DNA of 64,000 bases from Sphingomonas limnosediminicola (GTDB lineage: Bacteria; Pseudomonadota; Alphaproteobacteria; Sphingomonadales; Sphingomonadaceae), in the NCBI RefSeq assembly GCF_039537965.1, contig NZ_BAABBM010000001.1, positions 2,269,501 through 2,333,500 of the forward strand, given 5' to 3'. Every line of letters starts with the position of its first letter. The first letter of the stretch is position 1. Both the position numbers and the translations under genes were made by a program. A model generated the notes under the pieces. The model had not been told where the DNA came from and made no database searches. It saw nothing but the letters and a program-made list of their open reading frames with translations. This document shows positions 14,252 through 26,724 of the stretch, in pieces.

Positions 14252-14352
14252 CGTTCCAGCCCGACTCAGGATCAACGCCGAATTTTTGAATCAAAATCGT
14301 TCTTTTGCAACATGATCGCCATGTTGGAATATCTGCACTAACACGCCCGCTA

Positions 14353-14380
14353 ATGGCAGATTTCCACCCATTGCAGACAT
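14353..14380. repeat. dispersed repeat family A, half copy
   Basis: Reads TGGCAGATTTCCACCCATT then GCAGACAT. It is one arm of the palindromic element seen whole at 15396-15460 and lies just upstream of the esterase gene at 14405, where it could overlap the promoter. Confidence 0.6.
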
Positions 14381-14404
14381 AAGCGTCGCTGATAAGCTTC
14401 ACCC

Positions 14405-15244
14405 ATGTCGAGTTTGGCTTGTCGCCGAAGCGTTGAACTGCTCGCTTGCGCCTTGGCGGCGACGGCACTTTGCAGTTGTTCAGCGAGCCCAGGCACCCAG
14501 CGCGTCATTCCGCTCAACTATTTGCCCTCGCTCGCTGGCGACTACTTCCCGCTCAAGTCGGCAGCGATGGGAAGCACATACCACATCTACGTCCGCTATC
14601 CGGAGGACTACACAGCCAAACCAAACGTGAAATACCCCGTCGTCTATTTGCTCGACGGTGATTCCGCATTCCCGCTCATCGCACCTGAGCACCTGTTCCT
14701 CACGTACGATGATAAGCTCCCTGAAGCGATCATTGTTGGCATTGCTTACGGGTCGTTCGCGCCACCAGTGAATCACCGTGAGATCGACTTCGGTCCACGC
14801 GCGGCGGATTTTCAGCGCTTCCTCGCCGATGAACTCATCCCGGCTGTCGAGAAGCGAACCCGAGCCGATCCGGACAGACGGATCCTCGTGGGACAATCAT
14901 TTGGCGGCAACTTCGTTCTATATTCCGCCTTCACGATGCCTGACCTGTTCTGGGGACGCATTGCGAGCAACCCTTCTGCCAGGATGCATTCGGAGCTTAT
15001 GGCAACCGCACCGGCGGCTGCTCACCTCGATAATCTGCGCCTCGTGGTGGTGAGTGGAACGGCAAACAATCCTGAAGGGCGTGGCGCGGCGCTAAACTGG
15101 GTCGGCCAGTGGCGCAAACGACAGCTACCGTGGAGCCTGGACGAGATCGACATACCAGGTGGAACGCACGCCGCGGACTTTGACAACGCTTATCGGCTCG
15201 GGCTTCGCAAGTTGTTCGATCCCGCTGGTAAGCTAGCTCCTTAG
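14405..15244 (+). CDS. probable lipoprotein esterase of the Fes / esterase D-like fold
   Basis: 279 residues. The N-terminus is hydrophobic (VELLACALAATALCSCSAS), and LCSC is an acceptable though unusual lipobox. The body has YPVVYLLDGDSAFP, then the nucleophile elbow GQSFGGNFVLY, a PSARM turn after it, VVVSGTANNPEGR, and GGTHAADFDNAY for the histidine. These match the IroE/Fes-like group that cleaves ester-linked substrates, siderophores among them. It would act in the periplasm or outer membrane. It stands alone between repeat-bearing spacers. Confidence 0.78.
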   Translation: MSSLACRRSVELLACALAATALCSCSASPGTQRVIPLNYLPSLAGDYFPLKSAAMGSTYHIYVRYPEDYTAKPNVKYPVVYLLDGDSAFPLIAPEHLFLTYDDKLPEAIIVGIAYGSFAPPVNHREIDFGPRAADFQRFLADELIPAVEKRTRADPDRRILVGQSFGGNFVLYSAFTMPDLFWGRIASNPSARMHSELMATAPAAAHLDNLRLVVVSGTANNPEGRGAALNWVGQWRKRQLPWSLDEIDIPGGTHAADFDNAYRLGLRKLFDPAGKLAP

Positions 15245-15272
15245 GTCAGCTTCCCACCCATTACGGACATTG
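15244..15272. repeat. dispersed repeat family A, half copy
   Basis: Reads GTCAGCTTCCCACCCATTA then CGGACATTGAA, directly after the esterase stop codon. It matches one arm of the element at 15396-15460. Confidence 0.6.
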
Positions 15273-15395
15273 AAGAACAGCCTCGGACGCGGGCCCCTCG
15301 CATCGGCGGAAAAGCATGTCCTGACGCGCGGTCGGGGTGAAGCCGGATATATCGGCTGTCCAAAGAATGCCGCGATCCCTCCAGGTGCTTTTTGC

Positions 15396-15460
15396 AATGT
15401 CTGTTTTCAACCCATTCCGACCACTAGCTAATGGGCAGCTTTGGGTGGAAAGCGGACATT
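15396..15460. repeat. complete palindromic element, repeat family A
   Basis: A 65 bp unit whose first 19 bases (AATGTCTGTTTTCAACCCA) match the reverse complement of its last 19 (TGGGTGGAAAGCGGACATT) at 16 of 19 places. The middle also has a CTAGCTA-centred symmetry. It can form a long hairpin and looks like a REP or MITE-type unit, with single arms elsewhere in the left half of the window. No frame inside it is credible. Confidence 0.75.
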
Positions 15461-15861
15461 ACGCGACGCTGCGCTCGCTTCCTGGTTCAACGGCTCAACC
15501 TGTGGCCTAGTCGCTAGCGCATCTGAGCGCCTGTTCCAGCTTCCTGGGCTGAGGCTCGTGGCAGTTAACACATTGTAGTAAGGAAGTCTTGGCGTCGCGA
15601 CGCCCCTTTCGTAGCCAGACGGCGAGACCCGCTTGCTAGCATGTTGCTGACAGGCAAGTCTCCGGCCCGACGGCGGATTGCCCCCCATCGTCGGGTCGTC
15701 AGCACTCCAAGATTAAGGCCCTGCGACGCTTCGTCACGCAGGCCTGCTAGGGCATCCCGGATTGTTTCTTAACTCGGTGGCTTTACGCGTCGTTGCCAGA
15801 GGCTCGTCGTCGTGTTGCGTCCCCACCGGTGCGACTTGTCAAATGCCGGCGGGCCCCACCG
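15461..15861. other. spacer with no credible gene
   Basis: About 400 bases between the palindromic element and the response regulator. I see no frame with a family resemblance and a ribosome site, no tRNA and no clear terminator. A leftward 86-codon frame exists here, but its end is simply the repeat read as protein. Confidence 0.5.
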
Positions 15862-16257
15862 TCACGCGCCGGGTGATATCCGCAGTTTGAGCGAGGCACG
15901 CAGACTGCGAGCATTGTCTCCCAGCGCTCTGCGGACAGCATCGGCGAGTTCATCAGGCTTTACGGGCTTCTGCAGCACGATCGCACTGGGCTTCCGCTCT
16001 TCAAGCTCCTCGCGATAGCCGGTGATGAAAACCACCGGTATGTCGCGCTCAGCACATATTGCCTCGACGGCTTTGACGCCGTCCCCTGGCAGCAATCGGA
16101 CGTCGGCTGTAATGAGATCGAAGTTCGGATGGTTTGTGCCGAATACAGCGGCGTCCTCGGATCGCGCGAAGCTGAACTTGGTGAAGCCAAGCTCCTCCAA
16201 CATGTCCTGCAGCGACTTGGCGATCAGATAGTCGTCTTCGATGATGTATGCGTGCAT
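15862..16257 (-). CDS. stand-alone response regulator receiver domain
   Basis: 131 residues, a CheY-like receiver with no output domain. It has the acidic pair in MHAYIIEDDYLIAKSL, the phosphoacceptor Asp in LITADVRLLPGDG, Thr in VVFITGYREE and the late Lys in IVLQKPVKPDEL. ATG at 16257 is preferred; a longer frame upstream (PRGVFAFPRG) looks untranslated, and GAGG lies before this ATG. No kinase gene is near. Such single-domain regulators take phosphate from distant kinases, often of the HWE type in sphingomonads. Confidence 0.88.
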   Translation of the reverse strand: MHAYIIEDDYLIAKSLQDMLEELGFTKFSFARSEDAAVFGTNHPNFDLITADVRLLPGDGVKAVEAICAERDIPVVFITGYREELEERKPSAIVLQKPVKPDELADAVRRALGDNARSLRASLKLRISPGA

Positions 16258-16429
16258 TTCAATACCTCGGGGGAAAGCAAACACGCCTCTAGGGAGCATC
16301 AACGCATCGCCGCATATGAAGTTACCAATAGCGCCGCAAGACGCTGCTGTGCCTTTAAACTGAATAGCGGGAATGGGCCATTAGGGCCCGCGTGCGTTCG
16401 TTGTGACTACTCTGCGCTCAAACCAGACG

Positions 16430-16651
16430 TTAGGACGAGCTTCGGAACGCCGCGTAGCTCCCGTAACTCGAGACCAGGAATGGTACGATGTAAGTGAGCG
16501 CGAGCTTCCAAATCACCGGCCACTTGCCGGAGAGCATTTCCGGTCCTTGATTAATGATATTGAGCGCAGTCCCGACAACGAGCGCCACGACTATCGAGCG
16601 CCTTAGAGCCTTATCGGTGAGCGTGCGCCTTGCAGCTTCGCTTTGTTCCAT
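16430..16651 (-). CDS. NrtS-type small membrane protein
   Basis: 73 residues with two transmembrane helices. The signature SIVVALVVGTALNIINQGPE and then WKLALTYIVPFLVSSYGSY matches the NrtS family, where two small subunits form a nitrate/nitrite transporter in cyanobacteria; the bacterial homologues are mostly untested. Only one nrtS-like gene is visible and no nitrate gene lies nearby. ATG at 16651. Confidence 0.75.
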   Translation of the reverse strand: MEQSEAARRTLTDKALRRSIVVALVVGTALNIINQGPEMLSGKWPVIWKLALTYIVPFLVSSYGSYAAFRSSS

Positions 16652-16973
16652 ACGCCACGTGATCGCACTTCCACCGATAATTCCAGCTAAAAAGCTAATA
16701 TCGAACGTAGGTTAGAGGCTTTTGTAAATTGCCTTCCAAGGATCGCCGTGAGGCCCAACCCCGTCGCCACAATGATTGGGCAATGGTCTTCGGCCCGGCG
16801 TTCGGTTTGCCCCGCGTCGGGCCGTTAGCGCCCGAATGCTCATAGAAAGGTGCGGTCCCGGCGGTCACACGGTGGGCAATGTCACGTGGGACCTGAAAAG
16901 GCCTCTAACTGCTAACGGCCGGAATGGGTGGAAAGCCGCCCTTAGGACTAGCGGGGATCGACGGGAAAACTGT
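16652..16973. other. spacer with one half copy of repeat family A
   Basis: No gene is supported here. At 16911-16948 the sequence GCTAACGGCC followed by GGAATGGGTGGAAAGCCGCC is another arm of repeat family A. The rightward frame that crosses it owes its tail to the repeat. Confidence 0.5.
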
Positions 16974-17552
16974 CTAGGAAAGCAGGCCGGACGCCGTGGC
17001 TGCTGCAATCATAACGCCGACGGCGGCAAGTGAGGCTGCGGCAGTTACGATTCCGAATGAACGTGCAACCATGGCGATGGACAGCATCACAATGGCGACC
17101 TGCATCGCAGTCTCGGCAAATTCGAGCCATTCGCCCTTTCGGGAGGCAAGTTCACCCTGGTCCCGCAGATGGTCTGCTTGCGGCTGGAGCTGCGAGATGC
17201 CGTGTCCGGCCTTGTCCGGATTTCGTAGCCTCGCGGCGTCGTTGAGCAGGCGAGCTTTGACTTCCGGACTTAACAAAGGATTCTCAGCGGACGTCTTCAA
17301 GACCGCCTCGCGAATGATCTTGGCCTGCATGTAGTTGTACGTGTCGGACGCTTCGATTGTCTTCAGGACGCTCTCTCGCGCGTTGCCCGCTGCCGCGACA
17401 TGGATGACAGCAAGTAAGACAGCGAACAGTCCAACGAGGATAGAAACGCGATCGCGGAACCGCTTCTCGATGGCTCGGTCGGCACGGTCGACCTTCTCCG
17501 CCTGCTCGATAGCTTCCTCGATAAGCTCCTTGGCATCTACCGGCTCGACCAT
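16974..17552 (-). CDS. DUF4337 family membrane protein
   Basis: 192 residues. A charged helical start (EEAIEQAEKVDRADRAIEKR) leads to a first transmembrane helix (VSILVGLFAVLLAVIHVAAA), then a soluble helical part with ASDTYNYMQAKIIREAV, and two more hydrophobic segments at the end (VAIVMLSIAMVARSFG, then SLAAVGVMIAAATASG). This layout matches the DUF4337 family of unknown function. It is preceded by a spacer with repeats and is not part of an obvious operon. Confidence 0.75.
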   Translation of the reverse strand: MVEPVDAKELIEEAIEQAEKVDRADRAIEKRFRDRVSILVGLFAVLLAVIHVAAAGNARESVLKTIEASDTYNYMQAKIIREAVLKTSAENPLLSPEVKARLLNDAARLRNPDKAGHGISQLQPQADHLRDQGELASRKGEWLEFAETAMQVAIVMLSIAMVARSFGIVTAAASLAAVGVMIAAATASGLLS

Positions 17553-17670
17553 GGGGGCGTCACCTGCAACTTTTAGATCGAATGGCGACTCCCACGGTTG
17601 CGAAGATGTTTGAAGTGAAATCTGGTTAAGCGAGCCTCGCGAGCATTACGGCGATTGGTTGCCGACCTGC

Positions 17671-17696
17671 GTCAGCTTTGGGTGGAAAGCTGTCAT
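17671..17696. repeat. dispersed repeat family A, half copy
   Basis: Reads GTCAGCTTTGGGTGGAAAGC then TGTCAT, in the spacer between the DUF4337 gene and the MerR-type gene, just upstream of the latter's promoter. Confidence 0.55.
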
Positions 17697-17724
17697 CAGA
17701 CGCGCACGTCGGCGGAAATAGTGC

Positions 17725-17755
17725 TTGAAGTTGACGCAACGTCAACCTGTACAGG
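17725..17755 (+). promoter_or_regulatory. MerR-type promoter with 19 bp spacer and dyad
   Basis: TTGAAG at 17725-17730 and TACAGG at 17750-17755 are separated by 19 bases, the long spacing typical of MerR-regulated promoters. The spacer holds GTTGACG CAA CGTCAAC, a perfect 7 bp dyad. The -10 box ends six bases before the ATG at 17762, so the transcript would be leaderless or nearly so. This predicts autoregulation by the MerR-type gene that follows. Confidence 0.7.
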
Positions 17756-17761
17756 CGTTGC

Positions 17762-18529
17762 ATGGAACAGCCCCTCGACATTCGGGACGTCGCTCGCAGA
17801 ACGGGTCTGAGCAGCCGCGCCCTCCGCTTCTATGAGGCACGCGGACTCTTGAAGCCGTTGCGGACGCACACTGGCCGCAGGATTTACGGCCGCGGCGAGT
17901 TAGAGCGTCTCCAGCAGATTGTCGCGCTCAAGCGAGCAGGCTTGAGCCTCGCGCAAATTGGGAAGCTTACCGCCCGCGGATCAATGGACTTCGCGGCTGT
18001 GATCCAGACGCAGCTCGAGATCATCGAAAAACGAAAACAAGAACTTGAGGAGGCGAAGGCGCTGCTCCTCAACGTCAAGTCACGCATCGACCGCGGCGAG
18101 CCCGTCGATGCAGAGACCTTCTGCTCGCTGATAAGTCAGGGAGAGAAGATCATGCAACCGCAAGATTGGAAGAAGGTAACCGACCGCTACTTCTCGGAAG
18201 ATGAGAAAGCGCATTGGGCGAAGCACCCGCCGGCTACGCCCGAGGGCTTCGACCAGGCCGAGTATGCCGCCAAGTGGAAGGACATCGGCGATCGCGTCCA
18301 GGCTGCAATTCCAAGTGGCCCGGACAGCCCCAAAGCGCAGGCGTTGTATGACGAGTGGCAGCAATTGCTGGCGCCGTTCAAGGCGACCGCGACACCTGAG
18401 ATGATGTCGGGCGCTACGCGCTTTTACGAACGGATGGATGAATGGCACGGCGATGCTCCCCAAGCACCGTTTACGCCCGAGGCCTTTCGCTTCATTCAAG
18501 AGGTGGGACGCCGTCGGGCTAGCACTTGA
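17762..18529 (+). CDS. MerR-family regulator with TipAS-like ligand domain
   Basis: 255 residues. Residues about 5-75 are a MerR helix-turn-helix (IRDVARRTGLSSRALRFYEA then GLLKPLRTHTGRRIYGRGEL), followed by a dimerisation coiled coil (IIEKRKQELEEAKALLL). Residues about 130-250 form a helical TipAS-type domain starting at DRYFSEDEKAHWAKHP and containing WQQLLAPFKATATPEM. TipAS-type domains bind thiopeptide or other lipophilic antibiotics in known members. The promoter has a MerR-type dyad, so it probably controls itself. No dedicated target gene is adjacent. Confidence 0.85.
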   Translation: MEQPLDIRDVARRTGLSSRALRFYEARGLLKPLRTHTGRRIYGRGELERLQQIVALKRAGLSLAQIGKLTARGSMDFAAVIQTQLEIIEKRKQELEEAKALLLNVKSRIDRGEPVDAETFCSLISQGEKIMQPQDWKKVTDRYFSEDEKAHWAKHPPATPEGFDQAEYAAKWKDIGDRVQAAIPSGPDSPKAQALYDEWQQLLAPFKATATPEMMSGATRFYERMDEWHGDAPQAPFTPEAFRFIQEVGRRRAST

Positions 18530-18540
18530 GCAGACTAGAT

Positions 18541-18573
18541 ACGGATAGTCCGCTCCAAAGGCGGACTATCCGT
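18541..18573. terminator. strong hairpin between convergent genes
   Basis: A perfect 13 bp inverted repeat (ACGGATAGTCCGC, seven-base loop, GCGGACTATCCGT) 11 bases after the MerR-type stop and before the convergent FGE-like gene. It lacks a clear T run, so it may act as a bidirectional stem-loop terminator or mRNA end rather than a textbook intrinsic terminator. Confidence 0.55.
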
Positions 18574-18588
18574 CCATTCGGCATCGCC

Positions 18589-18615
18589 AATGTCCGCAAT
18601 GGGTCGAAAGCTGCC
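18589..18615. repeat. dispersed repeat family A, half copy
   Basis: Reads AATGTCCGCAAT then GGGTCGAAAGCTGCC, just beyond the hairpin at 18541-18573 and before the end of the FGE-like gene. Confidence 0.55.
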
Positions 18616-18666
18616 TTTGGGTCGGTAGCTCCGTGGAACGTGCAACAAAGATGTGATGAGAATGCG

Positions 18667-19638
18667 CTAGCGCCAGTCTCGTGCAACCCGGAAGCCAACG
18701 CCGCCGCTTCGGTAAGCGCTTAGGTTGGGACCCGGGCCCGGCGGCGGGGCAAAGCTCCGGGAGGCAGTTCGTATCCAACGTGCCTGATCTCCCCAGTCGC
18801 CGCCACGAACGACGCGGTAGTCGCATGTCGAGGTTCCTGAGAGTTCCTTGAGATCGCCCGTCGCGACGATCGCACGTGCAGTCTGAAACGGAGCCCCATT
18901 CGTGGGCAAGCCGGAATAAGTTGGTGAGAAGCAGTCTTCCACCCATTGCAAGACATTGCCACTCATGTCGAACAGTCCGAAGCCATTTGGCTCGAAAGCG
19001 TTGCCGGGCGAAGTCTTAATCCATCTGTCGCGACCGGACGCCAAACCTCCGCAGCACTCTTCGGTGCCGTGGTTGGCATGCTCATGCGATGAACCAGATC
19101 CCCAGAAATAAGCTGTCGTCGTGCCAGCCCGCGCCGCATATTCCCATTCCGCCTCCGACAGCAGGCGGTAACGCTTGCCGGTCTTCCGACTGAGCCAATC
19201 TGCGTAATCCTTCGCATCGCGCCACGTCACGCAGACCACTGGGTCGCGGTCCGTCTGCTCGAAACCGAGGTCATCCCACGACGCGGACTTCTCCCCCTCT
19301 GGTCCGGTCTTGCCGGTCCATTGGCAGCCCTTGTCGACTGGACGACGCGTGCTGCGGACGAAATAGGCCCACTCTTGTCGGGTGACGTCATATTTGCCTG
19401 CCAGGAAGCGCCGAACCGTCACCGCGTGTCGGGGTCCTTCCAAGGCGTCGTGCATCGGATCCTCGTCGGCAGTTCCCATCGAAAAGCGGCCTGCCGGGAT
19501 GGGGACCATTTCCGGGCAGTGTGCGCAATCCTTCACCGAGGCCGCTACTTTTCGGACCGTCGCAGCTTCAGTCGGCGCAACGACCGTCGACAGGATCGCG
19601 GCCAACAGCTGCATATGCCTCGGCGCGTTCGACTGCAT
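18667..19638 (-). CDS. secreted FGE-sulfatase-fold protein lacking the catalytic cysteines
   Basis: 323 residues from ATG 19638, chosen because GGGGGAAAAG lies before it; an upstream TTG is less likely. A signal peptide (MQLLAAILSTVVAPTEA region) precedes the fold. Family blocks are MVPIPAGRFSMGTADEDP, RFLAGKYDVTRQEWAYFV, RLLSEAEWEYAARAGT, FGLFDMSGNVLQWVEDC, VVRGGDWGD and a final GGVGFRVARDW. Formylglycine-generating enzymes need two cysteines after the RGG turn; here that stretch is GDWGDQARWIRTASRS, so sulfatase activation is unlikely. It may be a binding or scaffold member of the family. Confidence 0.82.
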   Translation of the reverse strand: MQSNAPRHMQLLAAILSTVVAPTEAATVRKVAASVKDCAHCPEMVPIPAGRFSMGTADEDPMHDALEGPRHAVTVRRFLAGKYDVTRQEWAYFVRSTRRPVDKGCQWTGKTGPEGEKSASWDDLGFEQTDRDPVVCVTWRDAKDYADWLSRKTGKRYRLLSEAEWEYAARAGTTTAYFWGSGSSHEHANHGTEECCGGLASGRDRWIKTSPGNAFEPNGFGLFDMSGNVLQWVEDCFSPTYSGLPTNGAPFQTARAIVATGDLKELSGTSTCDYRVVRGGDWGDQARWIRTASRSFAPPPGPGPNLSAYRSGGVGFRVARDWR

Positions 19639-20048
19639 CTTTTCCCCCAAGGATGGCCCAGCGCGTCTGAGACCCGAAGCTTGAACGCGTGGCGCTGATG
19701 GTGATCAGGCGCGGCTCGGAGCTGCGGTAGGCACTAGCCGACGTATTCGCAATCAGTCTCCCGTCTTAGCTGGTGGCAGGAATGGGTCGAAGCCTGCCAC
19801 TAGCAACGGACTGAACGGACGTCCGTTTACTGGCTGCGCCGAGCTTCACCGCAATGGCTGAGATGGGCGCTTACCGGCCGCTTTGACATGATTTCGCTTT
19901 CGCCGGCTTCCGCGCCTCATTCGCTTGACTGTTCATATGAAGAGAGCGTTGGTCGTTTGCGCTGCTGAACAGCGACAACGCCGCGCTTCGCCGCTGAAGT
20001 TCGCGGCTTGGGTCAGTGCAAGCGATCATGCTGGCATGGAGACCCACA
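19639..20048. other. spacer with repeats, no credible gene
   Basis: At 19773-19800, GTGGCAGG, a short loop resembling family A (AATGGGTCGAAG) and CCTGCCAC form an 8 bp stem. At 19819-19877, ACGTCCGTTT and, 37 bases later, GGCTGAGATGGGCGCTTACC match repeat family B, weaker than the other two copies. The repeats stop where the mobile-element genes begin. No gene is supported in this stretch. Confidence 0.55.
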
Positions 20049-20279: not shown

Positions 20280-20728
20280 TGACCAGTCTGGAACTGCAAT
20301 TGGCAGAGCTGTCCGGAATGTCACCGGCGCAGCTCCGCGCCAGGTGGCGCGATTGCTGGCGGAAGCCGGCACCTGACATCGGACCGGACCAGCTCCGCCG
20401 TGGCATCGCATGGAAGCTGCAGTCGAGGATCTACGGAGATGTTCCACGCCACATCAAGCGGGAACTGGAGTGCACAGCCGATCGCCTCCGGCGAGGGGAA
20501 GAGCCGCTCAGTACGAAACGACCGTCGCTCAAGCCCGGCACTCGGTTGGTGCGATCATGGCAGGGTAGGGTGCACCGGGTGCTCGTACTCGGCGATGGCT
20601 ACGAACATGACGGCAGGCGGTTCAGTTCACTGACGCAGGTCGCGACTGCCATCACCGGGACTCACTGCTCGGGTCCGAACTTCTTCGGCTTGAAGAAGCG
20701 CAATGGCGTCAGCCGGGCGGGACAGTAA
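20279..20728 (+). CDS. DUF2924 domain protein of the recombinase cassette
   Basis: 149 residues with the family landmarks LAELSGMSPAQLRARWRDCW, a RRGIAWKLQSRIYGD helix, PGTRLVRSWQGRVHRVLVLG and a FSSLTQVATAITGTHCSGP end, before FFGL. The last part resembles the DNA-binding fold seen near phage genes. It is coupled at both ends, ATG overlapping the DUF3489 stop and its own stop overlapping the recombinase start. Its exact role is unknown; it presumably assists recombination. Confidence 0.87.
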   Translation: MTSLELQLAELSGMSPAQLRARWRDCWRKPAPDIGPDQLRRGIAWKLQSRIYGDVPRHIKRELECTADRLRRGEEPLSTKRPSLKPGTRLVRSWQGRVHRVLVLGDGYEHDGRRFSSLTQVATAITGTHCSGPNFFGLKKRNGVSRAGQ

Positions 20729-22290
20729 TGAAGCGCCGGTGCGCCATCTACACCCGTAAATCGACGGAAGAAGGATTGGAGCAAGCCTTCAACAGCTTAG
20801 ATGCGCAGCGCGAGGCGTGTGCCGCCTACATCCTTAGCCAAGCGCATGAAGGCTGGGAGCCGGTTCAGGAACATTATGACGACGGAGGTTGGTCCGGTGC
20901 GAACATCACCAGGCCAGCCCTCCAGCAGCTCCTTGCCGATATTGCCGCAGGCAAGGTCGACGTCATTGTTGTTTACAAGGTCGATCGGTTAACCCGCAGC
21001 CTTGCTGACTTCGCCCGGATCGTAGAGGCGCTCGACAAAGCTGGCGCATCGTTCGTGAGCGTAACCCAGGCGTTCAACACAACAACCAGCATGGGGCGGC
21101 TCACGCTCAACGTGCTGCTGTCGTTTGCCCAATTCGAACGCGAGGTAACCAGCGAGCGCATCCGCGACAAGGTCGCGGCTTCCAAGCGCAAAGGTATGTG
21201 GATGGGCGGACCAGTTCCGCTCGGCTACCGAGTTGAGAAGCGGAAGCTTCTCATCGACCAGACCGAAGCAGAAACCGTGCGACTGATCTTCCGGCGTTAC
21301 CTGGAGCTGGGCTCGGTCGGACTCTTGGCCGATGAACTTGCTACGTCCGGCACGCGGACGAAGTTGCGGTACTACGCAACTGGTCGGAGCGTGGGAGGCG
21401 GCTGCTTCAGCAGGGGCTCGCTGGCCCAGCTGCTCCAGAACCCAATTTATATCGCCAAAGTCAGTCACCGCGGTGAGCTGTTCGATGGCGAACATCAGCC
21501 AGTGGTCGATGCCGCTATGTGGGCCGAAGTCCAGCGGCTGCTGACGAACAATCGCCGCGAACGCTTGCATGGTGAGCGTACCCGTTTCCCCAGCTTACTG
21601 ACTGGCCTCATCGCCGACGCTGAGGGACGCCCGATGACGCCGGTGTTCACGACGAAGGGCAGTCGTCAGCACCGCTACTATGTCACTCGGCTACAACCTG
21701 GTGAGGATAGCTGCTCCGCCTGGCGTGTTCCGGCTGGCGATATCGATCGCGCGGTGCTCGATTGCGCATCGAAGTTCTTGAGCGAGCGCACTGCTGAACA
21801 ACTTGACGGAAAAGATCGAGTTTCGCCGGGCGACTTGAGCAGGCACAGCGTGCCTGAACAGCGCCGATTGCTGCTTGAGGCAAGGGTTCGAATTCAGCTG
21901 GGCCTTTCCAATATCATCGTGACGATCGGCAGCGAGCCTCAGCGGCAAATTCCCTTCCACGCGAGCTATGCCCGCCGCGGAAACGAAATGAAGCTGGTCG
22001 TTGGGGAGGCGGGGCCGAGCAGGGAACCCGACCCAGTGCTCGTCAAGCTCCTCGCCCACGCCAATGCTGCCCGGGAAGCCATTGCTTCGGGAACAGCTGA
22101 TCCGCTGGTTTCCAGCTACAGCAAGCGGCACCTCTGGCAGCTGCTGCGCCTCAACTGGCTCGCACCGGATATCGTGACCGCGATTGTTCAGGGTAGGCAG
22201 CCCGCAAGCTTGACTGGGCGCCGTCTCCTTAGAGCAGCCGACGTTCCTCTCTCGTGGGAAGACCAGCGCCGGTACTTCGGCTTCAGCTGA
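20728..22290 (+). CDS. large serine recombinase
   Basis: 520 residues. The resolvase catalytic domain spans about 1-150: CAIYTRKSTEEGLEQAFNSL contains the catalytic Ser, VIVVYKVDRLTRSLADFARI and FAQFEREVTSERIRDKV the active-site arginines. The recombinase domain follows (GYRVEKRKL onward, NPIYIAKVSHRGELFDGEHQ). The zinc-ribbon region (LLTGLIADAEGRPM) lacks the usual cysteine pairs, as other members of this cassette family do. It could integrate or excise an element at short att sites. It ends 21 bases before an att-like repeat. Confidence 0.92.
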   Translation: MKRRCAIYTRKSTEEGLEQAFNSLDAQREACAAYILSQAHEGWEPVQEHYDDGGWSGANITRPALQQLLADIAAGKVDVIVVYKVDRLTRSLADFARIVEALDKAGASFVSVTQAFNTTTSMGRLTLNVLLSFAQFEREVTSERIRDKVAASKRKGMWMGGPVPLGYRVEKRKLLIDQTEAETVRLIFRRYLELGSVGLLADELATSGTRTKLRYYATGRSVGGGCFSRGSLAQLLQNPIYIAKVSHRGELFDGEHQPVVDAAMWAEVQRLLTNNRRERLHGERTRFPSLLTGLIADAEGRPMTPVFTTKGSRQHRYYVTRLQPGEDSCSAWRVPAGDIDRAVLDCASKFLSERTAEQLDGKDRVSPGDLSRHSVPEQRRLLLEARVRIQLGLSNIIVTIGSEPQRQIPFHASYARRGNEMKLVVGEAGPSREPDPVLVKLLAHANAAREAIASGTADPLVSSYSKRHLWQLLRLNWLAPDIVTAIVQGRQPASLTGRRLLRAADVPLSWEDQRRYFGFS

Positions 22291-22310
22291 ACCTCGTCGC
22301 AAGTCGCATC

Positions 22311-22532
22311 TGCATCTGGTGGCTGCGAAATCGGCCTTCAGAGAACGTGGACTGCCGACGAAGGATTGCATCCGGCCAAAGCGCTCTCTTGGCGCCAGCC
22401 CCTGATGGTCGGCTCGGCACAAACCCCCGAACCTACGCGCTAATTGAGGCCTCCCAGGTCACCCTCGGAATCTCGTCTCTGATCCGGAGGAGGGAGTGGT
22501 GCCACGGATAGGACTCGAATTTCTGACCCCAT
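22311..22532. repeat. left att-like region with tRNA-like fragment
   Basis: Positions 22311-22345 match 26462-26496 at 33 of 35 places (TGCA, then CTGGTGGCTGCGAAATCGGC and CTCAGAGAA-like end). GCTCTCTTGG recurs at 22383 and 26534. At 22493-22532 GGAGTGGTGCC, GGACTCGAA and GACCCCAT sit exactly where the 3' end of tRNA-Thr lies in the right copy. All three blocks keep an offset of 4151 or 4152 bases, so the whole stretch of about 220 bases is an old duplication. Read leftward, the last block resembles a decayed tRNA 3' end whose T stem no longer pairs. Confidence 0.7.
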
Positions 22533-22709: not shown

Positions 22710-23933
22710 TCACCGGAACTTGTTCTGCACGTCGCGGACCGACTGATACCCCTCGTGCAATGCCACGGTCCCGGAGGTGAGAAGACTCCGATCCTTGTCG
22801 AGCAGCGCATAGCTCACGGTCAATCCGGCCATTGTGAATAGCGGCGGGCCGCCGAGGAACGTCCAAAGGTTCTTCTTCGTATAATAAGCTCCGAGGGGCT
22901 TATCGCTGAGGACGAGGATGGCAGTCGTCGGTGAGTCAAGCTTGGCCTTAACCACCCTCTGGCGCCAGATTCTCTCGATGAGCGGCTCGCCGGCCTGAGG
23001 GACAGCCATTAGACTATCGATGAGGCTCTTGTACGCCGCGCCCGCGGCTTCCGCCGCTGTTGCCGCGGCCTTGAGCTCGGCCGCATGGCCCTCATCCCCC
23101 GATGACGCACGAGCCGTAGCTTCGCCCGCCTTCAGTAACACGTCCTGGTTGAGCTGCGCGAGCGCGGCCAGGTCAGCAGTAAACTCAGGATAATCCTTGG
23201 GCGCTACCTGCTTCGGAATGACTAAGCGAACCAAGTGACACTGGGATTTGTCCGACCCTGGAGGGCAATATTTCCGCTTTAACGCATCCGAAACGGCAAA
23301 GGCCATGACGTTGTCGGGTGACGTGACGCTCACTGGTCCGAAGGTGTAATCCGTCTGGAAATAGTTGCCGAGTTTGGCCGCCAGATCGAGTCCGGCGCCC
23401 AGATAGGTGACAGGCGAGGCGAAGCGGAAAGTTCGGCGTCCGCGTGACGTCCGGGCGAGTGCTTGGTCGAGGCGAGCGTTCGCAGTGTTGAGCAGTGTCG
23501 TAATCTGCTTCGACTGAAAATCGAACAGCGTGTAACTGGCGGTCGATAAGTCATCCATGCTCGTAACGAGCAATATCTCGTCGGGAGCGGGTGTTACCGG
23601 AGCATCGATAACCGCTTGGGCAATTTGTTGCGCTGCATCCTTGGCGGCCAAAGCCGCGAGGAGCATGGCCTCGGGCTTCGCGGCATCCGTACCAGGTGTG
23701 ACGCTGCCAGTCTGGGCATTCGTGCCTGCGACGATGCCCATTTGCGCGCGGATTCTGGCGGCTTCCTTCTCGATCGCCGCTGTTTCGGCCTCCTCGCGGG
23801 CTTTCACCGCGTTCCAGTACTCGGTTTCTTTATTGACCGTCGGCGTGTCCCCCGGTCCTGTTGTGCCTGTATCTGTTGGGTCAGCCATGCTCGCCCCCGT
23901 AGCGACGGCAATTGCGAGCAACGCTGCGCCCAT
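22710..23933 (-). CDS. hypothetical secreted protein, 407 residues
   Basis: Starts at ATG 23933 after AAAGGGGGAG. A short signal peptide (MGAALLAIAVATGASMA) is followed by a Thr/Gly/Pro-rich linker, a helical stretch with WNAVKAREEAETAAIEKEAA, a central domain with VTYLGAGLDLAAKLGNYFQ, an Ala-rich coiled region (AAELKAAATAAEAAGAAYKS) and a final FLGGPPLFTMAGLTVSYALLD part. No family is recognised. It sits inside the att-like-bounded segment with injection-system remnants, so it may be an associated cargo; that is inference only. Confidence 0.62.
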   Translation of the reverse strand: MGAALLAIAVATGASMADPTDTGTTGPGDTPTVNKETEYWNAVKAREEAETAAIEKEAARIRAQMGIVAGTNAQTGSVTPGTDAAKPEAMLLAALAAKDAAQQIAQAVIDAPVTPAPDEILLVTSMDDLSTASYTLFDFQSKQITTLLNTANARLDQALARTSRGRRTFRFASPVTYLGAGLDLAAKLGNYFQTDYTFGPVSVTSPDNVMAFAVSDALKRKYCPPGSDKSQCHLVRLVIPKQVAPKDYPEFTADLAALAQLNQDVLLKAGEATARASSGDEGHAAELKAAATAAEAAGAAYKSLIDSLMAVPQAGEPLIERIWRQRVVKAKLDSPTTAILVLSDKPLGAYYTKKNLWTFLGGPPLFTMAGLTVSYALLDKDRSLLTSGTVALHEGYQSVRDVQNKFR

Positions 23934-24119: not shown

Positions 24120-24581
24120 TCAGTTTTGTTCGGCAGAGGCGCCGCGGACGATGCTTGTCACCTTCTCTGCGACTTCCGTCAGCGTAGCACTTAGCCGGTT
24201 AAGCTCAGAAGCCGCCGAGGCTGCCGGATCATATCGGGTCGTCAAGTACTCTCGCGTTTCCGACAGGATCTCCAAGTGAGCCAACGTACGTTTGCGGAGA
24301 CGTAGCTTTGCACTCAAGGCGAAATGGGTCCGCGCTGCCAAGTCATGGTGCAAGCCTCGCAACCGTGCCGAGTGATGACCCGCGGCAAGTAACAGGGCAT
24401 TGAGGTAAAGTTCGATGGCGTGAATGGCGACCAGGCGGTAAGGGGCCCGCGAAAGTGGTTGCCGCCGGCGTCCAGTCAACAACAACGCATCTGCGGCGAC
24501 CCGATACTCGTCCGCGAGCCGGAGAACCTGCTCCGGCGTTGCGTTGTCGCCTGGATAGATCTTTTGCCCCTCAATCGACAT
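24120..24581 (-). CDS. HEPN-like helical protein
   Basis: 153 residues, all helical. EQVLRLADEYRVAADALLLT leads to LVAIHAIELYLNALLLAAGH and RGLHHDLAARTHFA, which resembles the AIELxLKAxLL and GHDL blocks of HEPN-type proteins, then a coiled tail. The classical R-x4-6-H RNase motif is not clearly present, so nuclease activity is doubtful. No partner nucleotidyltransferase is next to it; the divergent neighbour is the ATPase fusion. HEPN assignment is by resemblance only. Confidence 0.5.
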   Translation of the reverse strand: MSIEGQKIYPGDNATPEQVLRLADEYRVAADALLLTGRRRQPLSRAPYRLVAIHAIELYLNALLLAAGHHSARLRGLHHDLAARTHFALSAKLRLRKRTLAHLEILSETREYLTTRYDPAASAASELNRLSATLTEVAEKVTSIVRGASAEQN

Positions 24582-24651: not shown

Positions 24652-25428
24652 GTGGCTAACAACAAGACCCGGAAAGACCCTTACAAGAACTTCAAATTTC
24701 GCGTGCTGTTCGGTGCGGCGATCGTGGGCTTGGCAGGCTATGTGACCAACAAGGCGATAGGCATGTCGAGGCGTATGCACTTGCGTCCCGCCGGTCGTTC
24801 CCAATTGTTCCGCTTGGATCGGCCACAGGCGACCCCATCTTGGGACCAACTCGATCTCCCTCCGGCCCAACTTAGCCAGCTTCGCAAGCTCGCTGGAGGC
24901 GCGCGCCGCGCATCGCGCACTGGAGAGAGAAACGCCCGCCGCACGACCGGGAGCGAAGACGCTTCGGTTACCGCGCTTTTCGCCGGTGCATCGGGCACCG
25001 GCAAGTCAATGGCCAGCCAGCTGATTGCGGCCGGTCTCGGAGTCGACCTGTACCGCGTCGATATGTCGCGCGTGGTCAGCAAGTACATCGGTGAAACCGA
25101 GAAGAACCTCCGGCGCGTCTTCGATGCGGCCGAGGGGTCTGGCGCCGCCCTGCTACTTGAAGAAGCGGACGCGCTGTTCGGCAAGCGGAGCGACGTCCGG
25201 GATAGTCACGACCGCTACGCAAACACCGTAGTGAGTTATCTGCTCCAACGGATGGAAGATCACGACGGGCCTGTAATTCTCACGACCAATCACAAGCAGG
25301 ACATCGACGCCGCCTTCTTGCGGCGGCTTCGATACATCGTGGACTTCCCTTTCCCAGGCACAGGCGGGCGGGCAACGAACCGTATCGTCCGTCGGAGGAG
25401 AGCGTCGAAGCCGAAGCCGAAACCATGA
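24652..25428 (+). pseudogene. tail-tube start fused to truncated eCIS-type AAA ATPase
   Basis: A 258-codon frame from GTG 24652 behind CAGGAGA. Residues 1-18 (VANNKTRKDPYKNFKFRV) read like the start of a T4-type tail-tube protein of contractile injection systems. From about residue 60 it is the AAA domain of Afp15/Pvc15-like ATPases: SWDQLDLPPAQLSQLRKL, Walker A GASGTGKS (112-119), the block VVSKYIGETEKNLRRVF, Walker B at 166-175 with Glu in place of the first Asp (LLLEEADAL), then FGKRSDVRDSHDRYAN and the arginines of FLRRLRYIVDFPFP. Both the long N-terminal part and the C-terminal lid are missing. It looks like a deletion fusion. Confidence 0.75.
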
Positions 25429-25925
25429 CACGGCGCACGCGCTATTTTGGCAAGTTCCGAGGCAAAGTCTTCAACTCCGTTGACCCCCTGAACCTGGGGC
25501 GCGTTCAGGCCATCGTACCTGACGTAACTGGCTCCAATCCGACGGGTTGGGCGATGCCGTGTTTTCCTGTCGCCGGGATGTTCATGGCTCCGGCCGTGGG
25601 TGCAAATGTCTGGGTGGAGTTCGAGAAGGGCGATCTTGAGCGGCCAATCTGGACTGGCTGCTTTTATGCCGACGAGGCGGAGGTGCCGGTGTTGGATGCT
25701 CCGCTCCCCGGCGGCTCGGTCATCACGATGGAGACGGCAGGGCAAAATCGGATCGCCATTTCCGATCTGCCCGGGGCAAATGGCGGCGTCATACTGAGGA
25801 GCGCTTCCGGCGCGACCGTCATCGTCAACGACACGGGAATCTACATCACGAATGGAAAGGGCGCGAGCCTGACCCTGACCGGCCCCACCGTGACAATCAA
25901 CGACGGCGCTTTGAGCGTGACCTGA
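25425..25925 (+). CDS. gpV/Afp8-like baseplate spike protein
   Basis: 166 residues of the phage baseplate assembly protein V type used by contractile injection systems. It begins RYFGKFRGKVFNSVDPLNLG, continues with the OB-fold core GRVQAIVPDVTG, GWAMPCFPVAG and VGANVWVEFEKGDLERPIW, TGCF, and ends in repeats that form the beta-helix needle (ATVIVNDTGIYITNGKG, LTLTGPTVTINDGAL). Start ATG overlaps the fusion gene's stop (ATGA). It appears intact, although the sheath, other tube and baseplate wedge genes are absent nearby. Confidence 0.83.
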   Translation: MTRRTRYFGKFRGKVFNSVDPLNLGRVQAIVPDVTGSNPTGWAMPCFPVAGMFMAPAVGANVWVEFEKGDLERPIWTGCFYADEAEVPVLDAPLPGGSVITMETAGQNRIAISDLPGANGGVILRSASGATVIVNDTGIYITNGKGASLTLTGPTVTINDGALSVT

Positions 25926-25939
25926 GCGAGGTTGAGGTG

Positions 25940-26251
25940 ATGGGTAGCCCGGTTTTACATATTGGTTCTGGCGTGATTTGCATGCACGGCGGTTCCGCTA
26001 GCCCAACAACCTCGTTCGAGCGGGTGAGGGTAGGAGGCCAGCCAGTGCTGACGGTCACCAGTTCGTTCTTGATCGCTGGGTGCGCGGCCGCTCCGCCCAG
26101 CCGATGCGTGGTGGGCAGGTTCTTGACTGGCGCGGCGCGGGTTCTAGTTGGTGGAACTCCCATCTTGGTCCAGCAAGGCGTTTCAGTTTGCGAGCCAACC
26201 GGCACACCCCTGAATGCGGCTTCTGTCCAGTCACGAGTGACCGCAGTTTGA
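25940..26251 (+). CDS. PAAR-like spike-tip protein
   Basis: About 103 residues. GSPVLHIGSGVICMHGGSAS, VRVGGQPVLTVTSSFLIAGC, and a second half with RVLVGGTPILVQQGVSVCEP match the short PAAR-like tip proteins of eCIS loci (Afp10-type). A cysteine and histidine set that could bind the tip metal is present. ATG at 25940 is preferred to GTG at 25937 from the spacing to GCGAGG. It follows the gpV gene by 14 bases; the pair would form the piercing tip. Confidence 0.78.
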   Translation: MGSPVLHIGSGVICMHGGSASPTTSFERVRVGGQPVLTVTSSFLIAGCAAAPPSRCVVGRFLTGAARVLVGGTPILVQQGVSVCEPTGTPLNAASVQSRVTAV

Positions 26252-26461
26252 GAAGCCCGCCGTCGTCGCCGGCTCTCGATTCTAGCGTGTTTCGAGCCAA
26301 AACAGACGTTAGCCCTGGTCTGGGCGCTAAGGCCGGCTGCTAGGACTTGCGAGTGGCTATCACCCGGCGGTGAAGGTAAACTGTGCATTGGCAGCTTCTG
26401 GAGCCCCGCCGTTGGAGCCCCGGTTATAGCTGCAATTGATGATCGTGCATCAAATGGCGAC

Positions 26462-26684
26462 TGCAACTGGTGGCTGCGAAATCGGCCCTCAGAGAAGCAC
26501 ACCCGATTCTCACTGTGTCTGTGGTGCCAAACTGCTCTCTTGGACGAAGTAGTCGATGCGGGCGGTGTACGCATGTCCCGGAAAGAACGCGACAATTCGC
26601 ACAGTCTAAGAATGCGCTAAGTAATTGTCTCTGAAGGACAATTTGGAGTGGTGCCGCTTGAGGGACTCGAACCCACGACCCCAT
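26462..26684. repeat. right att-like region overlapping the tRNA-Thr 3' end
   Basis: The partner of 22311-22532 at a constant offset of about 4151 bases: 26462-26496 (TGCAACTGGTGGCTGCGAAA and onward), GCTCTCTTGG at 26534-26543, and GGAGTGGTGCC at 26645 onward, which here belongs to the intact tRNA gene. Apart from this repeat, 26252-26648 holds no gene I can support. Confidence 0.7.
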
Positions 26685-26724
26685 CATTACGAATGATGTG
26701 CTCTACCAGCTGAGCTAAAGCGGC
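26649..26724 (-). tRNA. tRNA-Thr(CGT)
   Basis: A 76-base cloverleaf reads leftward from 26724. The acceptor arms are GCCGCTT and AAGCGGC with discriminator A and encoded CCA. The D arm has AGCTCAGCTGGTAGAGC, the anticodon stem CATCA/TGATG holds the loop TTCGTAA with anticodon CGT, and the T arm reads GTGGGTTCGAGTCCC. CGT reads ACG, so it charges threonine. Its 3' end is the boundary of the right att-like region. Confidence 0.96.

Follow-up and report, generated by a model that had tools for sequence, protein, structure and literature searches.

A putative domesticated remainder of an extracellular contractile injection system, with a shortened and fused ATPase, in Sphingomonas limnosediminicola

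Three genes encoding a short AAA ATPase, a gpV/Afp8-type spike and a PAAR tip protein lie together in the 64,000-nucleotide stretch of the Sphingomonas limnosediminicola genome analysed here (the window). We favor, with a probability of about 0.45, the view that this trio is a streamlined, domesticated piece of an extracellular contractile injection system (eCIS) which may serve as a membrane-associated spike/tip module. Sheath, tube and baseplate would have been lost, the ATPase at least would have been retained by selection in several lineages, and the trio would be carried as cargo of a cassette at a tRNA-Thr gene. An eCIS origin had been proposed in the first-pass annotation, and the ATPase core, the spike and the PAAR protein do resemble parts of eCIS loci. 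In the accessible text of Geller et al. 2021 (PMC8213781), an eCIS is expected to have at least ten core genes together and at least one of Afp12, 13, 14 and 16. Only three eCIS-type genes are found here, so by the ten-gene criterion the locus is not an eCIS but is derived from one; none of Afp12, 13, 14 or 16 was present in a scan of 28 window proteins. Surveys that demand ten or more core genes, as this one is described to do, would miss a retained remainder of three genes.

The trio and the short ATPase family

The ATPase gene (24652..25428, + strand) starts with a GTG at 24652, and its stop codon ends at 25428. Its 258-aa product consists of a tube-like N-terminus (residues 1–18), a hydrophobic segment (about residues 16–36), a linker, an AAA core (residues 107–236) and a short tail, with no lid. 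In a profile search of the three proteins, proposed in the first-pass annotation as a check, ATPase residues 109–233 matched Pfam AAA (6e-24), the spike (166 aa; 25425..25925, +) matched Phage_base_V (2.6e-17), and the PAAR protein (103 aa; 25940..26251, +) matched PAAR_motif at 4e-4, below the Pfam cut-off. The ATPase also matched PHROG 10401 'ATPase' (6e-47, 162 bits). The ATG of the spike gene overlaps the stop codon of the ATPase gene (ATGA), all three frames are open, and no extra domain was found by Pfam on the spike or the PAAR protein. A Phage_base_V spike with an adjacent PAAR gene, which is a feature of eCIS, is thus present at the locus. Since the listed PAAR relatives begin M-G-S-P or M-P-G-P, the start of the PAAR gene is most likely the ATG at 25940 and not the GTG at 25937. 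Spike and tip had both been described as intact, and this description holds for the spike with its open frame and domain match, as well as for the tip, with its start moved to 25940, whose open frame is 48–50% identical to the frames just behind the spike match in loci L011–L013.

Relatives of the ATPase were taken from a search of 5.8 billion proteins, in which the 8000 candidates sharing most words were scored. Besides the window protein (P0121), 11 proteins (P0122–P0132) matched 90–100% of the length of the short ATPase, and one further match (P0133) was shorter. The 11 proteins are 59–82% identical to the window ATPase in the alignment, and every one of them combines a tube-like start with a hydrophobic stretch and a lid-less AAA core. 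In a tree of core residues 63–236, built without the N-terminus so that the trait itself was left out, the 12 short ATPases formed one clade (support 100/99) apart from 34 others, namely 31 selected from the 107 non-short ATPases listed, together with those of L009, L012 and the plasmid pSA1; the bootstrap was not fully settled, and P0134 was on a long branch. Mean column conservation was 0.87 for residues 1–18 and 0.86 for the core, with values of 0.70 (residues 19–36), 0.59 (linker 37–62), 0.72 (63–82), 0.68 (linker 83–106) and 0.51 (tail) elsewhere, a pattern such as would be expected under selection on the start and the core. From these alignments, we regard the fused ATPase as the mark of a conserved family and not as the outcome of a single deletion.

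The catalytic elements, read by eye, are kept to different degrees. All 12 short ATPases share the catalytic Glu, the Arg pair and the pore-loop Lys-Tyr; the sensor-1 Asn is kept in 11, the Walker B Asp in 10 (Glu in the window ATPase and P0127) and an intact Walker A in 9, the remaining 3 being altered. The last modelled core strand of the window ATPase ends at residue 232 of 258, and the 8–29 residues trailing this strand in the 12 members are too few to form a lid. The N-terminal domain, D1 and the C-terminal lid of the Pvc15/Afp15-type ATPases were not found, and such lid-less AAA proteins may not hydrolyze ATP.

In a neutral simulation allowing substitutions only, the share of runs in which the frame stayed open was 17% (at 82% identity) and 2% (at 61%) for the ATPase, 49% (at 87%) and 14% (at 64%) for the spike, and 43% (at 79%) and 24% (at 65%) for the PAAR protein. 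Since 14–49% of spike and 24–43% of PAAR frames stay open neutrally, an open frame in these two genes says little by itself; in addition, the protein database consists of predicted open frames, a biased sample in which broken copies are under-seen. Since the shortened ATPase recurs in at least 11 other sequences, the trio would seem to have been kept for a new use and not to be decaying.

Among the spikes listed (120 of 650), the only ones of the window type were P0002 (87% identical), P0003 (84%) and P0004 (64%), all with open frames. The listed PAAR relatives were P0242 (79% identical), P0243 (76%), P0244 (65%) and P0245 (48%), as well as P0241, which is listed without a source and is 97% identical, differing at three positions. 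The longest contig measures 3099 bases for both ATPase P0123 and spike P0003 (source jgi) and 1514 for both spike P0004 and PAAR P0244 (source ena), from which we infer that each pair lies on the same contig. When the longest contig of each of the 11 other ATPases is compared by length with those of the spikes listed (120 of 650), only the 3099-base one recurs, and a comparison with the 5 PAARs listed gives none. Most of the ATPase contigs are short (1.4–3.8 kb), and several may end too early to show tip genes. Since the contigs of P0127 (11366 bases) and P0131 (8775 bases) are long, yet share none with the listed spikes or PAARs, the ATPase may persist without tip genes. Judging from these contigs, the linkage of the trio in relatives is thinly shown.

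The tube-like start

A 41-column model (A3), generated from the N-termini of the 12 short ATPases and of a small protein from a species of the same genus (genome G068, see below), was used to search overlapping sets of 71 genomes from the genus, 396 from the order and 308 from the family. It gave matches in 18 different genomes in addition to G068 and that of the window. All 18 matched frames resemble the tube protein of genome G285, itself among the 18 (phmmer, E ≤ 7.6e-46), and the three that were scanned with Pfam were all identified as Phage_T4_gp19. When the model was rebuilt with the 12 ATPases only, the 18 tubes scored 19.7–38.4 bits, compared with at most 5.0 for other frames and at most 3.0 for reversed frames; these two controls speak against a chance resemblance. 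The match between ATPase and tubes spans approximately residues 3–18, reaching residue 28 in some tubes, and lies close to the beginning of the tube frame; in the tube of L065, the open frame extends 97 residues farther upstream of the match.

Behind the matched residues, a hydrophobic peak (17-residue window) was found from residue 16 on in all 12 short ATPases. It exceeds that of both tubes compared in 11 of them, the exception being P0125 (1.29 versus 1.31 for the G408 tube). Residues 14–36 were modelled as one helix with low confidence (block pLDDT 46–58). The first-pass annotation had described a tail-tube-like start fused to an Afp15-type AAA core, with which Pfam AAA, PHROG 10401 and the tube-start model agree. 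Its tube part stands for the start itself, but what comes next is the hydrophobic segment and not the remainder of a tube.

A search for the N-terminus of the short ATPase in 385 genomes of the class found only that of the window. Two tblastn matches to it, in L007 and L008 (E 3e-4 and 0.001), were antisense to a spike-like frame by eye and were dropped. In IMG/VR, the matches to the ATPase (28 loci) all begin at query residue 28 or later. The only A3 match among the 71 genus genomes besides that of the window was the 97-aa protein of G068 (L067:6559-6849), which has the same tube-like start and hydrophobic stretch followed by a basic tail rich in Lys and Arg; its gene is preceded by a GGAGG motif and located between rpoA and the L17 gene. 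The presence of start and helix on this separate protein, in a species of the same genus, suggests that they can stand alone, and the two may be a reusable module.

Related systems and competing explanations

In the genome, the window spike carries the sole Phage_base_V domain. Phage_sheath_1 gave no match genome-wide, with its control finding matches in 3 of 14 genomes; this model scores two of three sheath-like proteins of tube/eCIS loci (24 and 32.5 bits) and misses one. PF06841 (gp19-type tube) gave 0 matches genome-wide, its control being likewise silent, and the N-terminal model found no DPYKNF-type tube in the genome, detecting only the fused ATPase, although a tube that starts differently would escape it. 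The Pfam scan covered 28 window proteins and gave no eCIS family for the 25 outside the trio. A search for sheath and tube genes, proposed earlier, therefore found none by Phage_sheath_1 or the tube-start model, both of limited sensitivity, and the suggestion that the trio serves as donor parts for a system elsewhere found no recipient in this genome within that sensitivity.

The closest comparison was provided by the conjugative megaplasmid pSA1 of Novosphingobium resinovorum (NZ_CP017076.1:1392000-1428000, L034), a record without gene annotation. Its eCIS locus, of the Afp/PVC type, encodes sheath, Pvc16_N, CIS_tube, spike, Baseplate_J and eCIS_core proteins and a 640-aa ATPase with WHD and AAA domains; one of its proteins matched both eCIS_core and OmpA. 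The spikes of the two loci are 54% identical and in pSA1 the spike is directly followed by a match to the PAAR protein (34%). The ATPase cores are 58% identical, whereas the ATPases differ in length (640 aa versus 258 aa), and none of the sheath, Pvc16_N, CIS_tube, Baseplate_J and eCIS_core proteins of pSA1 was found beside the window ATPase. Across L009, L012, L013 and pSA1, identity to the window ATPase core is 56–58%, and the L009 and pSA1 loci contain eCIS_core and baseplate families. The window ATPase core is related to the eCIS-type ATPases (Pvc15/Afp15). According to the accessible part of PMC11495950, effector loading in PVC is the task of Pvc15, in which D2 is the active ATPase domain. 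Compared with Pvc15 as described there, the window AAA core has the Walker, pore-loop and Arg-pair elements of D2, but the protein has no room for the N domain, D1 and lid, has Glu in place of the Walker B Asp, and carries the tube-like start and the hydrophobic segment. The literature searched, with preprints and most subscription papers lying outside it, describes no such fused ATPase or three-gene remainder.

Under the domestication reading, the hydrophobic segment near the N-terminus would anchor the ATPase to the inner membrane, leaving the AAA core in the cytoplasm. The first residues of the ATPase would mimic that end of the tube which normally contacts spike and hub, so that spike and PAAR protein would assemble on the ATPase in place of a tube. 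A complex of this kind could not contract, and its task would be the holding, assembly or presentation of a needle of spike and tip at its own cell's membrane. A precedent for a membrane adaptor of contractile injection systems (CIS) is given by CisA of the Streptomyces CIS, a membrane protein for which the accessible text of PMC12237407 proposes a role in recruiting CIS parts to the cytoplasmic membrane. The likeness to the window ATPase is one of description; CisA serves a complete CIS and is not called an ATPase in that text (PMC12237407). The trio may even represent a new class, a contraction-free, membrane-bound tip machine in which an AAA protein, with a captured tube start as docking peptide before a membrane helix, assembles or gates a spike-PAAR needle without sheath, tube or baseplate, but this stronger version is, in our view, unlikely. 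A functional trio would mean that spike and tip are of use without contraction, and would make the short ATPase, with its minimal AAA core, a simple handle on how an eCIS ATPase meets tube and spike.

The main rival, which we consider rather doubtful, is that the trio is a tip donor for a system elsewhere: spike and PAAR protein, with the ATPase as a helper, would be spare tips for a contractile system that is complete and resides on a plasmid or in a strain acquiring the cassette. Orphan Hcp/VgrG/PAAR islands of T6SS occur commonly and are regarded as a source of interchangeable delivery modules of this kind (PMC13098142, accessible part), and the window resembles them, as described there, in being a small locus with spike and PAAR genes and no sheath or baseplate, such islands often lying near mobile elements. 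The cassette structure suggests mobility, and the eCIS on the conjugative Novosphingobium megaplasmid looks complete. In contrast to the islands of that description (PMC13098142), the window has an eCIS-type spike, which scores far below the VgrG cut-offs, its own fused ATPase and no resident recipient detected, the genome having one Phage_base_V domain, no Phage_sheath_1 match and no DPYKNF-type tube. A tip donor with no extra domain found on spike or PAAR protein would also leave unexplained why the ATPase has captured a tube start and carries a hydrophobic segment. Alternatively, deletions could have fused the tube start to the ATPase core in a decaying relic, whose tip genes are merely unbroken so far. 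The loss of the lid and the N-terminal parts of a normal eCIS ATPase, the drift of catalytic motifs in several short ATPases, the rarity of spike and PAAR genes alongside the ATPase among the matches listed, and the fraction of neutrally evolving frames that stay open (2–17% for the ATPase, with the spike and PAAR values given above) would all fit decay. We nevertheless find it quite improbable, because the same fused architecture recurs in 11 other proteins of one clade at 59–82% identity with start and core conserved, and spike and PAAR are intact in the window and in relatives. The decayed locus of the first-pass annotation is contradicted by this clade and by the open-frame spike and PAAR relatives, while its other proposal, that the tip genes were kept for another use, gains support from the conserved fused ATPase family.

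Two further explanations were considered. A membrane-bound mimic of the tube end, with surplus spike and PAAR protein, might block or trap contractile particles or phage tails, in line with the tube-like start and hydrophobic segment on the 97-aa protein of G068 and with a match of the AAA core to the anti-phage ATPase IetA (85 bits in PADLOC). However, the score with NCBIfam IteA was 79.7 bits against a cut-off of 510, so that an identity as the IetAS anti-phage ATPase was rejected, and PHROG 10401 gave 162 bits versus approximately 80 for the IetA type, a rough comparison since the libraries differ; such an interference role is very unlikely. That the trio is an ordinary phage remnant, with the gpV-type spike of a contractile phage, is scarcely credible. 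Ten phage records do match the spike, at about 30% identity over 76–94% or 41% over 42%, which is weaker than the 54% identity to the spike of the plasmid-borne eCIS locus; a phage origin is thus not supported. The companion ATPase and PAAR protein are eCIS-like, and a pattern scan of IMG/VR viral contigs for the N-terminus, the spike and the PAAR protein gave pattern matches of which none encodes a relative.

The tRNA-Thr cassette

The trio lies inside a 4.15-kb cassette that has a tRNA-Thr gene on one side and a degenerate copy of the 3' end of this gene on the other. The left flank repeat (22300..22532, +) consists of the 3' flank of a recombinase gene and of this degenerate copy (22493–22532), in which 29 of 40 bases are kept, and the right flank repeat (26451..26684, +) ends inside the tRNA-Thr (cgt) gene (26649..26724, −). 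Left and right flanks are joined by three collinear repeats with an offset of 4151–4152 bases, and the 27-base repeat core (≤3 mismatches) occurs at only these two places genome-wide. The tRNA-Thr gene is presumed to be the integration site of the cassette. Adjoining the cassette is a gene for a large serine recombinase (20728..22290, +) with Resolvase and Recombinase domains. In 10 of the 14 related loci compared, tRNA-Thr (cgt) precedes a gene for a 463-aa protein, as in the window. Genomes G012 and G022 have a recombinase 66–68% identical to that of the window and a DUF2924 gene about 200 bases from the tRNA-Thr gene, without the cassette, and the other tRNA-Thr loci of the 10 showed no recombinase match within the stretch compared. 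The simplest reading is that the cassette arose as a second insertion into this tRNA site and now lacks a recombinase of its own. It suggests a route by which injection-tip genes move through tRNA sites.

Two more genes are found in the cassette. One (22710..23933, −) encodes a 407-aa orphan protein with a signal-peptide-like start (by eye), which had no relative on plasmids and, in 197 related genomes, only its own and one weak partial match. The other (24120..24581, −), divergent from the trio operon, encodes a 153-aa protein that by eye resembles a HEPN-type domain, Pfam giving no family match. It matched 53 plasmid records from rhizobia and sphingomonads (45–59% identity in the 20 listed), whose proteins are named hypothetical protein where annotated.

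To the left of the recombinase gene, GC content is lower than in the right flank. This side of the window also contains a gene for a protein resembling a sulfatase-modifying factor (FGE-sulfatase; 18667–19650) and, at 14350–19803, at least five scattered direct copies, together with inverted ones, of a 20–40-base repeat around GGGTSGAAAGC.
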